The notes beneath the pieces are model-generated. The model did no database searches. It saw nothing but the letters and a program-made list of their open reading frames with translations, and was not told the origin of the DNA. A stretch of DNA of 64,000 nt from Sporosarcina sp. HYO08 (GTDB lineage: Bacteria; Bacillota; Bacilli; Bacillales_A; Planococcaceae), in the NCBI RefSeq assembly GCF_001563475.1, contig NZ_LPUT01000028.1, positions 124,001 through 188,000 on the forward strand, given 5' to 3'. Below are positions 47,284-52,280 of this stretch, piece after piece (the stretch's first letter is position 1; each line of letters opens with the position of its first letter). A program made the position numbers and the translations under genes.

Positions 47284-47568
47284 AATACTTGTCCCCCTTT
47301 TTAGTTCATTCAGACAAATTACTATACCTCTTCATCATAGATCATATTCCAAGCAGTTGCAATGACAACATTGTGTCACATAAAATTCCAAAAAACTTCA
47401 CTTGAACGTATGGAGTCCTTTCCTTTAGAAGGATCGGCCGCTATAAAAGAAATGGAAGACTTTTACTGAAACAATTAACGAATAAGGTATAATAAAAATA
47501 TATAATTACTTTTATTTTTTGAAATGTAAGTTTTATGCCTAATAAATAGTATGAAAGCAGGAATACAA

Positions 47569-48645
47569 ATGAAAGTCCTTTTGAGGGTCAGTGTATTACT
47601 TCTAATCGTTCTTATCATTATTTACTATATGGAGAATCGCGTAAAAGAAAACAAGCCGCTTGAATCACCGGTTCAGCATGGCACTGCTCTTCCTGTTCCG
47701 GATATGGGAGAAAGTAATGGCGGAGAGAGAACTGCTCGCCCGGAGAAAGGCTTATCGACTTGGGTTGGAAAAAGTGCAGAAAGTCTTTCCAAGGAGATCG
47801 GAAAACCGAATCGGATAGAGCCGTCAGAATTTGATTATGACTGGTGGATTTATACAAATATACCGAAAATGATGGTTGGCGTAAAAGATGGAAAGATTAA
47901 TCAAGTTTACAGTGCTGATTATGCGGCAATGGTTGAGCCGTTTGAAATTGGTCAAAGTGTAGAAGATATTTATCGTTTTACGATCGTAGAATCAGAAATC
48001 AATGTTGAAATCGATGGAAGTGTGTACACTTTTACGCTGAATAGTGAGGATAGGAAAAACCGTTTACTCATTGCGTATGAAAATCTATATGCCCATCTTT
48101 ATATCGATGATGAAGATGGAGAGCTGGAGGCGATTCGTTTTATCGATCCTGTGACACTTGTCATCCACCAGCCGTATGATATGACATATATGGGGGAAAT
48201 CATTACATTTATTCGTCCATCCTCAACTGTTCAATTAGAAGTTGACCGAGCGATGGAACGGCAAATATTTGAATTGACGAACGTATATAGAGAAAAACAT
48301 GGATTTGCTAAGTTGAAAAAAAATGATCAACTGGAGTTGATCGCGAGAGCACATAGTAAGGATATGGCTCTAGAAAATTACTTCTCTCATGAATCACCAG
48401 TAGCTGGCAACCTGGCTGATCGATTGAAAGAAGTGGCGGTAGAGCAAAAGAAAGCCGGAGAAAATATTGCTTTCAACTATATTGATGCGATTGATGCAGT
48501 TCATGGCTGGCATAATTCTCCGGCACATCGGAGTGTCTTACTCGATAAAAATTTTACGCATTTGGGAACGGGTGCTTACGGACATTATTACACACAAGTT
48601 TTTGTTCGGATGAACGCTGCCGAAAAGAATAACCAAAAGAAATAA
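47569..48645 (+). CDS. ylbC: YlbC-like membrane-anchored CAP/SCP-domain protein
   Basis: 358 residues from the ATG at 47569. One N-terminal hydrophobic anchor (about 4-20), a linker, a CAP-associated domain (about 70-215) and a C-terminal CAP domain (about 235-350) with HSKDMALENYFSHESP, AGENIAFNY and HNSPAHRSVLL, the usual His/Glu positions. It would sit outside the cell. YlbC proteins are of unknown function; related CAP proteins such as YkwD are sporulation-linked. A second ATG at 47551 is possible. Confidence 0.82.
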   Translation: MKVLLRVSVLLLIVLIIIYYMENRVKENKPLESPVQHGTALPVPDMGESNGGERTARPEKGLSTWVGKSAESLSKEIGKPNRIEPSEFDYDWWIYTNIPKMMVGVKDGKINQVYSADYAAMVEPFEIGQSVEDIYRFTIVESEINVEIDGSVYTFTLNSEDRKNRLLIAYENLYAHLYIDDEDGELEAIRFIDPVTLVIHQPYDMTYMGEIITFIRPSSTVQLEVDRAMERQIFELTNVYREKHGFAKLKKNDQLELIARAHSKDMALENYFSHESPVAGNLADRLKEVAVEQKKAGENIAFNYIDAIDAVHGWHNSPAHRSVLLDKNFTHLGTGAYGHYYTQVFVRMNAAEKNNQKK

Positions 48646-48647
48646 GG

Positions 48648-49379
48648 CTATGGTAAAATCCAAGTTCCTTTTTCTGTCCCCGCGATTCCTCTAATATATA
48701 GGGGAATCGCTTTTTTAGAAGCAAATTTCGCGGCGCGTATTTGAATGATCGGTCGATCACAATTTAATAGGGGCATAAATTGATCCATTTTTAGGACATC
48801 TAACTTCACACTATTAGCAACTTTATGTGGGTCACTTGTCATTACGCCCGGAACATCTTTGAAAAATTCAACGTGAGAGGCTTCCAACGCAGCTGCAAGT
48901 GCAATCGCTGTTAAATCGCTTCCGCCTCTTCCAAGCGTCATTACTTGACCTGACTGATTCATTCCTTGAAATCCAGGGATAATTAAGCAATTGGTTTTCT
49001 TCAGTGTACGATTTATTGCTGTCGGATCAATTCGGTCGATTGTTCCATCCCCAAATTCTCCTTCTACTAAAATACCTGTTTTATATCCGTGAAGAACGGT
49101 ATTTGAAACGCCTTCCCTTTTCAGTTCCGCCGAAAGGACTGCTGCCGCAATCAGTTCTCCGCAAGAAGCGGCAAGGTCACTTGCTTCTTTTGAATAGGAA
49201 AAAGCATCCGTAACACGTAAGAGGCTATCGGTTGAGTAAGGATTGCCGTATCGTCCAATTGCAGAAACGACAACTACGACAACTCCATACTTGTCTAGTC
49301 CATCTTTAATATGGGCTATGCATTTCAATCTTGTTTGTTCATCGCCCATGGCGACACCACCAAACTTTTGGATGATCAT
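48648..49379 (-). CDS. Short aspartate kinase lacking ACT domains
   Basis: 243 residues, against 400-450 for usual aspartokinases. The amino-acid-kinase core is complete: KFGG (about 5-8), a SAIGRYGNPYSTDSLL substrate loop, LGRGGSDLTA (about 150-160) and FKDVPGVMTSDP (about 174-186). It ends where the regulatory ACT domains should begin, so feedback inhibition by lysine or threonine is not expected. It makes aspartyl phosphate, the first step to diaminopimelate, dipicolinate, lysine, threonine and methionine. Divergent from a MurE-type ligase across 112 bp with mother-cell-like promoter boxes. ATG 49379 is preferred over an in-frame TTG at 49391. Confidence 0.82.
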   Translation of the reverse strand: MIIQKFGGVAMGDEQTRLKCIAHIKDGLDKYGVVVVVVSAIGRYGNPYSTDSLLRVTDAFSYSKEASDLAASCGELIAAAVLSAELKREGVSNTVLHGYKTGILVEGEFGDGTIDRIDPTAINRTLKKTNCLIIPGFQGMNQSGQVMTLGRGGSDLTAIALAAALEASHVEFFKDVPGVMTSDPHKVANSVKLDVLKMDQFMPLLNCDRPIIQIRAAKFASKKAIPLYIRGIAGTEKGTWILP

Positions 49380-49400
49380 ACGGATTCCCAACTTTCTTCG

Positions 49401-49437
49401 TGACGTTTAACGCATTTTTTTCATACGATAAAGTATG
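49401..49437. promoter_or_regulatory. Divergent sporulation-type promoters between aspartokinase and MurE-like genes
   Basis: CATAC GATAAA GTATG (49422-49437) is an inverted repeat that gives a -10 on each strand. On + it reads CATACGATA, fitting the sigma-K -10 CATAnnnTA, with AC exactly 17 bp upstream (49403-49404). On - it reads CATACTTTA, seven of eight to the sigma-E -10 CATACAnT, with GAATATA 12 bp upstream as a possible -35. No sigma-A promoter is seen in this gap. Confidence 0.5.
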
Positions 49438-49491
49438 TTTCGCTCTCAATATATTCGTCAGAAGTTAAAATGTTCGGGAAGGGGGAAAGAG

Positions 49492-50925
49492 ATGTTATTT
49501 TTACCTGAGCTCTTGAAAGATTGGCCTTGTACAGTTTTCGGGGGAGAGTTTAGGATTAATGTGAATGGAGTGTCAGAATGCTCTTCCAGGGTGCAAGAAG
49601 GCTTTATCTTTGTTGCAAGAAAAGGGGGACGAATGGATGGTTTGGAACATATAAAGGAAGCGATTGAAAATGGGGCAGTGGCAATCGTCGTCGATCGTGC
49701 TACATTGCAAGTGGATTCCATAAATGTTCCAATCATTCAAGTGCCGAACTGCCAAAAATTTCTTGCATATGCCAGTGCGCAATTTGCCAATAATCCTTCC
49801 AAACGGTTAACAATGATCGCTGTAACAGGGACGAATGGTAAAACAACTGTCACGCATCTTATTGGACAGTTGCTTCAAAAATTAGGGATTCAAGCAGCTG
49901 TAATTGGCACGACAGGCTGCTGGATTGATGGCGTGAAGGTGGAAGCGGATATCCCCGAGATGACGTCATTGCCAGCGGAGTTTTTACATCCTTTACTCGC
50001 AACATGTGAGCAGCGCGGTGTGAGCCATATCATTTTGGAAGCATCATCTATAGGGCTTGCTTCTGGTCGATTAGATGCATGTGACCTAGATATTGGGATT
50101 CTATTAAACATTGGGCTCGATCATTACGAAGAGCATGGGGGAAAACAAGCGTATATTGAGGCGAAAAAGCAGCTGATTTCAATGGTCAATACAATGATTG
50201 TGAATGAGGAAGATCCGTTATGCATGCAAATGATAGAAGGTGCCACAGTTCCGATTACCTATTTTGGTGAGCATAAGATTGCCGACAAAATAGCACCAAA
50301 TTTAAACATTCCTTTTCCGGGTTATTATAATCGTTTGAACTTATTTGCGGCGATGAGTGCACTCATTTTGCTTGGCTATCGAATTGAAGAGCTTATTCCA
50401 CATATAGCATCGTTAAGGCTTCCAGAAGGACGTTTACAGCGTTTAGAGCGCGACGGGGTCACTGTTTATATTGACTATGCACATACGCCGGATGCACTTC
50501 AGGCTGTACTTCAAACGTTATGTGGTGTTTGTTATGGGAAGCTTATTACAGTTTTTGGCTGCGGCGGGGAGCGAGATAAAGGGAAACGCAAAGAAATGGG
50601 CGAACTGGCTGTGTATTATTCTTCAAATGTATTCGTAACTTCAGATAATCCAAGAAATGAGGATCCTTCAGCAATTATTGCTGATATTTTAGTTGGATTT
50701 GGTGGTGATTGCTCTGCGATTGAAGTTGTACCCAATCGGAAGAATGCCATTCGACAAGCGATTTTTAGTGCAGCGCCGGGAGATATTGTGCTGATTGCAG
50801 GGAAGGGGCATGAAAAAACACAGCATACTGCAGAAGGAATTTTTCCGTTTTCTGATTTTGACGAAGCAAAGCAGGCATTGACGGAAAAAACATATATTGA
50901 CATTAAAGATTTAAATAAGGGATAA
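49492..50925 (+). CDS. MurE-type UDP-MurNAc-tripeptide ligase, diaminopimelate signature (probable second MurE)
   Basis: 477 residues from the ATG at 49492, after AAGGGGGAAAGAG. Mur ligase with ATP loop AVTGTNGKTT (about 112-121), the carbamylated-Lys region and a C-terminal domain with TSDNPRNEDPSA (about 385-396) and AGKGHEKTQ. DNPR plus GKGHE is the substrate pocket of meso-diaminopimelate-adding MurE; lysine-adding enzymes have other residues in place of Arg. The usual murE belongs to the mraZ-ftsL-pbp cluster that normally follows bshC, just beyond this window. Divergent from the short aspartokinase. I infer a role in spore-cortex precursor synthesis. Confidence 0.82.
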   Translation: MLFLPELLKDWPCTVFGGEFRINVNGVSECSSRVQEGFIFVARKGGRMDGLEHIKEAIENGAVAIVVDRATLQVDSINVPIIQVPNCQKFLAYASAQFANNPSKRLTMIAVTGTNGKTTVTHLIGQLLQKLGIQAAVIGTTGCWIDGVKVEADIPEMTSLPAEFLHPLLATCEQRGVSHIILEASSIGLASGRLDACDLDIGILLNIGLDHYEEHGGKQAYIEAKKQLISMVNTMIVNEEDPLCMQMIEGATVPITYFGEHKIADKIAPNLNIPFPGYYNRLNLFAAMSALILLGYRIEELIPHIASLRLPEGRLQRLERDGVTVYIDYAHTPDALQAVLQTLCGVCYGKLITVFGCGGERDKGKRKEMGELAVYYSSNVFVTSDNPRNEDPSAIIADILVGFGGDCSAIEVVPNRKNAIRQAIFSAAPGDIVLIAGKGHEKTQHTAEGIFPFSDFDEAKQALTEKTYIDIKDLNKG

Positions 50926-50991
50926 ATGGAAAGGTGCATCCCAACCATTCAATCTGTTATGATAGAAAGTGATGGGAGGGATCACTGTATA

Positions 50992-51432
50992 ATGATGACC
51001 GATGAATGGATTACCATCATTGAAAAAGCAGAAGAGTTAACCGATATGTTGCTGTTGTCAGAAGCTGCGGCGGAATATCGTCAATCATATAACACTGTCT
51101 ATTCGAATAAAGAATTGACTAATCATATCCGTACGTTTACTACTATGAAAGAACGTTATGAAGAAGTACAGCGATTCGGAAGGTATCACCCGGATTACCA
51201 GACTGTCATGAAAAACATTCGCGTACAAAAAAGAGAACTTGATCTCAACGAGAAAGTTGCAGCGTTAAGATTAGCAGAAAATGATTTACAAGAACTTTTT
51301 GATGAAATTAGCCTGCTAATCGGAAAATCTGTATCGGATTCAGTAAAAGTACCTACGGGCAATTCATTTTTCTCAAGTTCTTCCTGTGGCAGTGGATGCG
51401 GTTCGGGCGGAAGTTGTTCCTGTTCGGCCTAG
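50992..51432 (+). CDS. ricF: RicF (YlbF), subunit of the Fe-S RicAFT complex
   Basis: 146 residues from ATG 50992 (GGGAGGG upstream; frame open back to 50926 without a ribosome site). Helical core with [35 protein letters not shown]-type YlbF signature and a Cys-rich tail [13 protein letters not shown] that helps hold [4Fe-4S] clusters. With RicA and RicT it assists RNase Y-dependent mRNA maturation and promotes competence, sporulation and biofilm in B. subtilis. Confidence 0.93.
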
Positions 51433-51887: not shown

Positions 51888-52280
51888 TTACTGGAGCGGC
51901 GGCAATAAGTGATTTAGACGAAGGATTCCGGTTACGTATTGATAAAAAAGTTCTCGATCAGAGAATTCTGAAGAGTTTTTTAGTTCGATGTAAATAGGAG
52001 TCGTGCCCAATTGCTCGGCTGCTTCTTCGAATAATCGTCTTCTTTTTGATTTTATATCGTCTGTTTGAATGATGCCTTCACGACAGACATAGATCGGCAT
52101 AAAATTACTTACGGTTGCCGGTTTAAAGGCAGCGGCAAGCGTTAGAGCATGTCCATTTGTTACTGGAGCGGCGAAAATAAATGCATGATGAAGCCGGGCT
52201 GCATTTGTTTTCATTAGTTCGCATAATTCGTAAACGTCGCCGTAGCCTTCGCCAAGTTCGATGAAACGTTGATGAAGCAT
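51888..52280 (-). CDS. DUF7147-like conserved protein, unknown function
   Basis: 130 residues, ribosome site AAAGGAAG. Begins MLHQRFIELGEGYGDVYELCELMKTN and has a HHAFIFAAP strand and a KRRRLFEEAAEQLG helix. Similar proteins are sometimes labelled methylthioribose kinase, but no kinase motif is visible and the protein is far too short. It lies between ylbG and rsmD on the opposite strand. Confidence 0.65.
   Translation of the reverse strand: MLHQRFIELGEGYGDVYELCELMKTNAARLHHAFIFAAPVTNGHALTLAAAFKPATVSNFMPIYVCREGIIQTDDIKSKRRRLFEEAAEQLGTTPIYIELKNSSEFSDRELFYQYVTGILRLNHLLPPLQ

Follow-up and report, generated by a model that had tools for sequence, protein, structure and literature searches.

What is a second, complete Mur ligase doing head to head with a truncated aspartokinase in the ylb region of a Sporosarcina genome? 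The question is raised by a stretch of 64,000 nucleotides from Sporosarcina sp. HYO08 (C28:124001-188000, in a genome of 3.05 Mb), henceforth the window, in which an aspartokinase core and a Mur ligase, here called MurE2, are divergently oriented between ylbC and ylbF. A first-pass annotation of the window had interpreted the pair as a supplier of spore-cortex precursors; this interpretation is partly supported by the present analysis, its core idea surviving with corrections. MurE2 is most likely a sporulation-specific ligase that would add diaminopimelate (DAP) to make the cortex precursor. The full explanation, in which MurE2 is a sporulation-dedicated UDP-MurNAc-L-Ala-D-Glu:meso-DAP ligase, a second ligase (MurE1) serves growth and the aspartokinase feeds DAP synthesis, is given a probability of about 0.82.

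MurE2 and its association with a sporulation marker

The MurE2 reading frame (49435-50925, plus strand) comprises 496 aa. Since a conserved promoter palindrome overlaps the first ATG (49435), translation probably starts at the ATG at 49492, which yields 477 aa. All three Mur ligase Pfam domains are present, and the DNPR and GKGHE motifs, which had been read as those of a complete Mur ligase, indeed start at residues 404 and 456 of the 496-aa frame. MurE2 scores 400.5 bits with the MurE ligase model TIGR01085 (cut-off 257.3) and exceeds the cut-off of the curated DAP-ligase model (PRK00139.1-4; 404.6 vs 373). Its best relative of solved structure is the DAP ligase of Mycobacterium tuberculosis (250.5 bits), the L-Lys ligase of Staphylococcus aureus (4C12) scoring 161.1. 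According to PMC3829189, the Asn and the Arg of DNPR both contact the DAP carboxylate in DAP enzymes. DNPR in the window MurE2, with both predicted contacts, is what would be expected of a DAP ligase; DNxR was found in 29 of 29 MurE2 sequences and strict DNPR in 24. An alignment of 21 sequences shows no variation in the ATP-binding motif, in the usually carbamylated lysine, in GKGHE or in the Asn and Arg that contact DAP.

In a MurE tree, for which 7 of 81 sequences were thinned beforehand, MurE2 forms a separate clade on a long branch (support 100/99). In three of another 39 loci the pattern used detected no MurE frame; one of them, the staphylococcal-like G237, was added to the tree by hand. 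Scores at MurE2 level (539 bits or more) occurred in 18 of 299 sampled Bacilli genomes, all belonging to Sporosarcina's family, with a best score of 447 bits elsewhere; an order-level search likewise drew only members of this family. Common descent of MurE2 with the murE of the Bacilli division and cell wall (dcw) cluster, as expected of a relocated copy, was neither established nor rejected (approximately unbiased test, p = 0.106).

Within the window's genus, MurE2 was present in 45/45 sampled genomes and the aspartokinase in 31/31 searched, so the pair is not a chance arrangement. This genus, g1, is taken to be Sporosarcina, the g1 loci being those to which the region of Sporosarcina highlanderae comes closest; a scan for further loci drew generic MurE patterns, and one of its 80 loci was a close relative, that of S. 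highlanderae.

A survey of the whole family was carried out on 200 evenly drawn genomes, at least 90% complete, using a 21-row MurE2 profile whose best scores fell into two groups (E ≤ 1e-160 and E ≥ 1e-120). SpoIVA was detected in 154 genomes. SpoIVA and MurE2 occurred together in 150 and neither in 46, a figure obtained by subtraction with 20 genomes itemised individually; the other four, all of genus g2, had a SpoIVA match without a MurE2-level score. MurE2 was thus found only in genomes positive for the sporulation marker (0 of the 46 SpoIVA-negative genomes) and, as the first-pass annotation had required of a cortex module, the pair is not conserved in the SpoIVA-negative relatives.

Genus g2 (L251-L254) displays MurE2 and the aspartokinase at stages of decay, ylbJ also being weak or missing. 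One g2 genome, G020, carries a 489-aa SpoIVA frame together with MurE2 and aspartokinase frames that are open but diverged, GKGHE reading GKGNE; in G001, G038 and G053 the SpoIVA match is weak and MurE2 survives only as fragments, accompanied by aspartokinase fragments in the last two. Among 14 SpoIVA-negative genomes from six genera, no match to MurE2 or the aspartokinase was found within 1.5 kb beside ylbF. ylbC was present at 13 of these 14 loci and absent from that of G027, and in six SpoIVA-negative loci from four genera the interval from ylbC to ylbF holds a frame of roughly 160 aa, identified as a 4HBT thioesterase in the one tested. ylbJ, a sporulation gene in Bacillus subtilis, gave no match in any of the 11 loci, of 13 longer SpoIVA-negative ones, that hold both coaD and ylbL.

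Regions of 150 nt upstream of the genes, merged where identical over 110 nt, were scanned for CATANNNTA, a motif of the -10 type used by sigma-K and sigma-E, the two mother-cell factors, treated here as one class. For some genes the start codon was chosen with a crude score of the ribosome-binding site, and a few of these choices are clearly off. The motif is found upstream of MurE2 in 45 of 50 distinct regions (2.0 expected) and upstream of MurE1 in 0 of 13 (0.8 expected). In 35 of the 45 strict-box regions, GTGACA, GTGACG, GTGTCA or GTGTCG stands 15-16 nt ahead of the box; the five regions lacking a strict box comprise four one-base departures (CATACGCTG, CATACTCTG twice, CATACGATG) and one with none. 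All 11 scored loci that lack the aspartokinase have CATANNNTA before MurE2 despite different flanking DNA, as do two further loci. The distance from box to start is 26-33 nt in these 11 and 66-74 nt in 23 of the 34 others.

As a positive control, CATANNNTA precedes the sporulation gene spoIVA in 10 of 16 regions (0.65 expected, from first-order resampling rather than exact shuffles; 4 of 20 loci were not scored, no start being called). Elsewhere in the region, the motif occurs upstream of ylbJ in 4/7 (0.4 expected), ylbC in 7/50 (4.3), ylbF in 3/51 (1.7), yugN in 2/46 (4.7), ctaG in 4/29 (1.6), ylbA in 0/26 (1.1), ytvI in 1/21 (1.0), the gene at window position 51888 in 0/25 (1.6), ylbH in 2/25 (1.2), coaD in 1/24 (1.1), prfC in 0/14 (0.4), ylbG in 1/9 (0.15), ylbL in 0/6 (0.5) and ylbM in 0/1. 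Counts on the opposite strand are highest, apart from the pair itself, for coaD (5/24), the gene at 51888 (5/25), yugN (5/46) and ylbL (5/6), a gene that neighbours ylbJ in divergent orientation. In several genera (L201-L220) a palindrome, AAACGTTTCATGC...GCATGAAACGTTT, was also observed ahead of the -10 box of spoIVA; it is perhaps the terminator of the preceding gene.

Observations against the reading and the alternatives they favour

A number of observations weigh against a sporulation-dedicated, DAP-adding MurE2 with its aspartokinase, and they are taken here together with the alternatives that they favour. Some concern the marker and the motif. Sporulation state is deduced from SpoIVA, not observed, and the cortex of these bacteria is taken to be of DAP type. 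The window taken alone contains 26 copies of CATANNNTA in 64 kb, where 30 are expected; single-sequence promoter significance was rejected on this count, and conservation across loci was used instead. Of the 50 MurE2 upstream regions, 29 stem from one genus, although 20 of the other 21 carry the strict box. Three hits in genus g3 are off the aligned place, where CATACGATG stands, and one strict-box hit lies 144 nt from the start, likewise away from the aligned place.

Further observations concern the aspartokinase. This protein comprises 243 aa counted from the ATG at 49379, or 247 aa if the in-frame TTG at 49391 is used. AA_kinase (6.4e-33, residues 2-230) is its sole Pfam match, the same search finding no ACT domain. 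Its best NCBIfam model is PRK08210 (DapG-like), residues 1-241 matching model positions 3-245 of 405; the protein therefore stops about where the regulatory part would start, in agreement with its original description as a core ending before the ACT domains. With the models for monofunctional aspartokinases, TIGR00656 and PRK08210, the kinase core is recovered and the full length including ACT is not (187.9 vs a cut-off of 402.25 and 224.7 vs 474, respectively). The only other aspartokinase found in the source genome has 458 aa and matches PRK09034 across its full length (623.7 bits). The absence of ACT domains and the promoter shared with MurE2 together suggest an aspartokinase free of feedback and tied to DAP supply, a role that we infer and hold less firmly than that of MurE2.

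The aspartokinase, for which a core alignment of 18 copies was made, is present in all sampled members of genera g1, g3, g4, g5, g11 and g17 and was not found in any sampled member of g10, g13, g14, g15, g18 and g19. In total, 73 of the 150 MurE2 genomes carry it and 77 do not, so it is not required by the MurE2 system. The first-pass annotation had expected the module as a whole to co-occur with sporulation: this is borne out for MurE2, which occurs only with SpoIVA and carries a mother-cell-type motif, and fails for its partner in about half of the genomes. A tentative alternative, less probable than not but to be taken seriously, is consequently that MurE2 is sporulation-linked and DAP-adding, with the aspartokinase outside the module, either serving another use of aspartyl phosphate, for instance dipicolinate, or being a mere neighbour. 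Consistent with this alternative, the strict motif precedes the aspartokinase in 24 of 38 regions (1.4 expected), mostly in the window's genus, and the protein is closest to DapG, whose gene in B. subtilis belongs to the dipicolinate operon spoVF-asd-dapG-dapA. A row of full-length aspartokinases in the same scan (7/9 with the motif) was ignored, being read as a cross-match to the truncated protein.

On the other hand, the divergent, closely spaced pairing with MurE2 recurs in loci of all six genera bearing the aspartokinase. Among the rows of the species tree that carry MurE2, the aspartokinase changes state once, most simply by a single loss, and in g2 it decays along with MurE2. Moreover, DpaA_N (PF16924, dipicolinate synthase subunit A) was detected in none of the 200 family genomes, including the 154 with SpoIVA, and was detected in the B. 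subtilis control. A contribution of the aspartyl phosphate to dipicolinate, as originally envisaged, is therefore unlikely to run through SpoVFA. Dipicolinate may come by another route in spores of Sporosarcina's family; a role for EtfA in Clostridium perfringens is the subject of a title among the references of PMC3533761.

A second group of observations concerns the other MurE. PF08245 has nine matches in the source genome; searching with the full length of MurE2 found only one other MurE there: MurE1, of 500 aa, on C28 near 94-96 kb. The second murE on which the cortex hypothesis depends is thus present, although not in the dcw cluster where it had been sought: there spoVD is directly followed by mraY (L011:3443-6442, C28 near 193-196 kb), and MurE1 maps some 4 kb away from prfC. 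A MurE1 within about 4 kb of prfC was found in 13 loci from six genera (g1, g5, g7, g9, g10 and g11). All 13 have DDPR, so that the difference from MurE2 is Asn to Asp. The Arg of DNPR, previously put forward as the discriminating residue, is not discriminating, since MurE1 also has it.

MurE1 keeps this Arg, and both copies exceed the cut-off of NCBI's DAP-ligase model, neither reaching that of the L-Lys model PRK14022 (MurE2 241.6, MurE1 400.7, cut-off 536). Because both are called DAP ligases, wall type cannot be read from model-based annotation in Sporosarcina's family. The MurE of Thermotoga (4BUB) also has DDPR in the alignment with solved chains and, according to PMC9434261, builds L- and D-Lys into the wall in vivo and can also accept DAP in vitro; MurE1 may accordingly not be lysine-exclusive. 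DDPR thus marks an enzyme able to serve Lys rather than one excluding DAP. These points favour the view that MurE1 and MurE2 are both DAP (or both Lys) enzymes, their duplication separating dose or timing and not chemistry. We consider this very improbable. Among solved chains MurE1 scores highest with 4C12, the L-Lys ligase of S. aureus (446.3 bits, next chain 299.6), and MurE1 forms one clade (support 100/100) with the MurE of G237, which is likewise located beside prfC, has DNPA and scores 645.4 with the L-Lys model. Of 36 other MurE sequences, 35 have DNPR or DNSR, the sole DDPR belonging to a MurE1-like second copy in G336, whose dcw cluster holds a DAP-type copy as well. Finally, Lys is reported in the growing walls of Lysinibacillus (PMC6971209).

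In G336, which belongs to another Bacilli family, the DAP-type MurE lies between spoVD and mraY, and the MurE1-like DDPR copy about 3.5 kb from prfC (copies: L291:6453-7943, L292:5971-7464). This genome looks like the state before the dcw murE copy was lost. The source genome holds further Mur-type ligases at C28:41-51 kb (L009:2961-13383): three were noted, one fused to a YheC/D ATP-grasp domain, in a cluster with two L-amino-acid-ligase-like ATP-grasp proteins and another YheC/D protein.

The remaining observations concern the link to sporulation across the phylogeny. A species tree of 47 rows (loci), built from nine ylb-region proteins, needs at least seven changes of sporulation state, and MurE2 is concordant in 7/7 independent pairs (p = 0.016). 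In this test MurE2 was given the same label as SpoIVA, since the two coincide in the survey; G020 counted as positive and G001, G038 and G053 as negative. If all of g2 is coded negative, 6/6 pairs agree (p = 0.031). Without g2, the contrast is 5/5 (p = 0.0625), so the test rests partly on a decaying genus, and with g2 coded as SpoIVA present and MurE2 absent it averages 4.7/5 (p = 0.0625 to 0.125). That the contrast without g2 misses 0.05, and that MurE2 is a complete MurE, would suit a general or stress-time backup MurE whose sporulation link is a by-product of lineage. Such a backup is nevertheless very improbable, as no contrast is opposite in direction under any coding of g2, a mother-cell-type motif stands upstream, and MurE2 remnants are found where SpoIVA is weak.

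A role outside peptidoglycan, with neither DAP nor Lys ligated, as suggested for a plant MurE paralogue, would accord with the divergence and long branch of MurE2, with its EASSxGL at the place of EVSSHGL in MurE1 and with a DNPR-bearing moss paralogue that was inactive as MurE in preliminary tests (PMC9434261), and is highly improbable given the invariant nucleotide- and DAP-binding motifs described above.

Organization of the locus

The gene order in the window reads ylbC, aspartokinase core (-), MurE2 (+), ylbF, ylbG, rsmD, coaD, ylbJ, ylbL and ylbM. The names ylbC, ylbF and ylbG were assigned via Pfam and the others by sight, names and order being read against the B. subtilis order, in which ylbD and ylbE lie between ylbC and ylbF. 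Given these two neighbours, the head-to-head pair sits at the ylbD/ylbE position, as had been stated at first. The two -10 boxes of the pair overlap in the window within the palindrome CATACGATAAAGTATG (49422-49437).

Features of the aspartokinase-MurE2 locus, in window coordinates
Feature	Position	Strand	Remarks
ylbC, CAP-domain protein	47551..48645	+	conserved left neighbour
aspartokinase core, ACT-less, DapG-like, 243 aa	48648..49379	-	Pfam, NCBIfam, family survey
-35-like GTGACG of MurE2	49400..49405	+	16 nt before -10 box
-10-like CATACGATA (CATANNNTA, presumed mother-cell sigma type) of MurE2	49422..49430	+	starts 70 nt ahead of MurE2 start
-10-like CATACTTTA of aspartokinase	49429..49437	-	overlaps MurE2 -10 within palindrome CATACGATAAAGTATG
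MurE2, complete DNPR-type Mur ligase, 477 aa	49492..50925	+	ORF open from 49435; domains, motifs, clade
ylbF	50926..51432	+	conserved right neighbour

A proposed switch of wall chemistry and its known counterparts

With MurE2 regarded as the DAP-adding ligase of sporulation, the following sequence of events can be proposed from the genomic evidence. In the growing cell, wall precursor would be made by MurE1, which belongs to an L-lysine ligase lineage also found in staphylococci, lysine being abundant. When the cell sporulates, sigma-K or sigma-E in the mother cell would turn on murE2, plus the aspartokinase where present, and MurE2 would divert UDP-MurNAc-dipeptide to DAP for the spore cortex. 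From the overlapping divergent promoter, the ACT-less aspartokinase would most likely supply aspartyl phosphate, and from it DAP, without feedback while lysine is abundant. This last step would apply to roughly one in two sampled MurE2 genomes, the source genome among them.

A wider evolutionary reading, towards which we lean only slightly, treats the pair as a two-gene switch of wall chemistry, with a feedback-free mother-cell aspartokinase and MurE2 expressed from one overlapping divergent promoter. The switch would be ancestral in the spore formers of the family, the aspartokinase having been lost once (in the lineage of g10, g13, g14, g15, g18 and g19) and both genes discarded along with sporulation, and G336 would represent an intermediate.

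Enzymological work of the 1970s on sporulating Bacillus sphaericus reportedly described separate Lys- and DAP-adding activities and a cortex of DAP type. MurE2 may be the missing gene for that DAP-adding activity. Our literature search, which reached few subscription papers, found no description of murE2 or of the murE2-aspartokinase pair, consistent with the first-pass annotation, whose author knew of none, and no gene assigned to the two B. sphaericus activities. In a 2012 survey of sporulation genes, murE is absent from the main text and the Lysinibacillus genome is set aside as insufficiently reliable (PMC3533761).

MurE2 is a candidate gene for a compartment-specific peptidoglycan switch, and it makes testable how one cell builds two chemically different walls simultaneously. 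murE2 is also offered as an indicator that a sporulation programme is live or was lost recently. More generally, it would illustrate an ordinary enzyme family put to developmental use.

The proposed system resembles several known ones in part. With the DAP-adding MurE enzymes (E. coli 1E8C, M. tuberculosis 2WTZ; PRK00139), MurE2 shares the three Mur domains, GTNGKT, DNPR and GKGHE, but it differs from them in being a second copy outside dcw, in forming its own clade, in being limited to one family among the 299 Bacilli genomes and in its link to sporulation. MurE1, unlike MurE2, shares a clade with the S. aureus L-Lys MurE (4C12), as well as a prfC neighbourhood like that of G237, yet it has DDPR where the S. 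aureus enzyme has DNPA. The aspartokinase shares its kinase core and best model (PRK08210) with DapG, from which it differs in lacking ACT domains and in having a divergent murE2 partner instead of a place in the spoVF-asd-dapG-dapA operon. The activities reportedly found in B. sphaericus resemble the proposed system in comprising two specificities in one organism, with DAP for the cortex.

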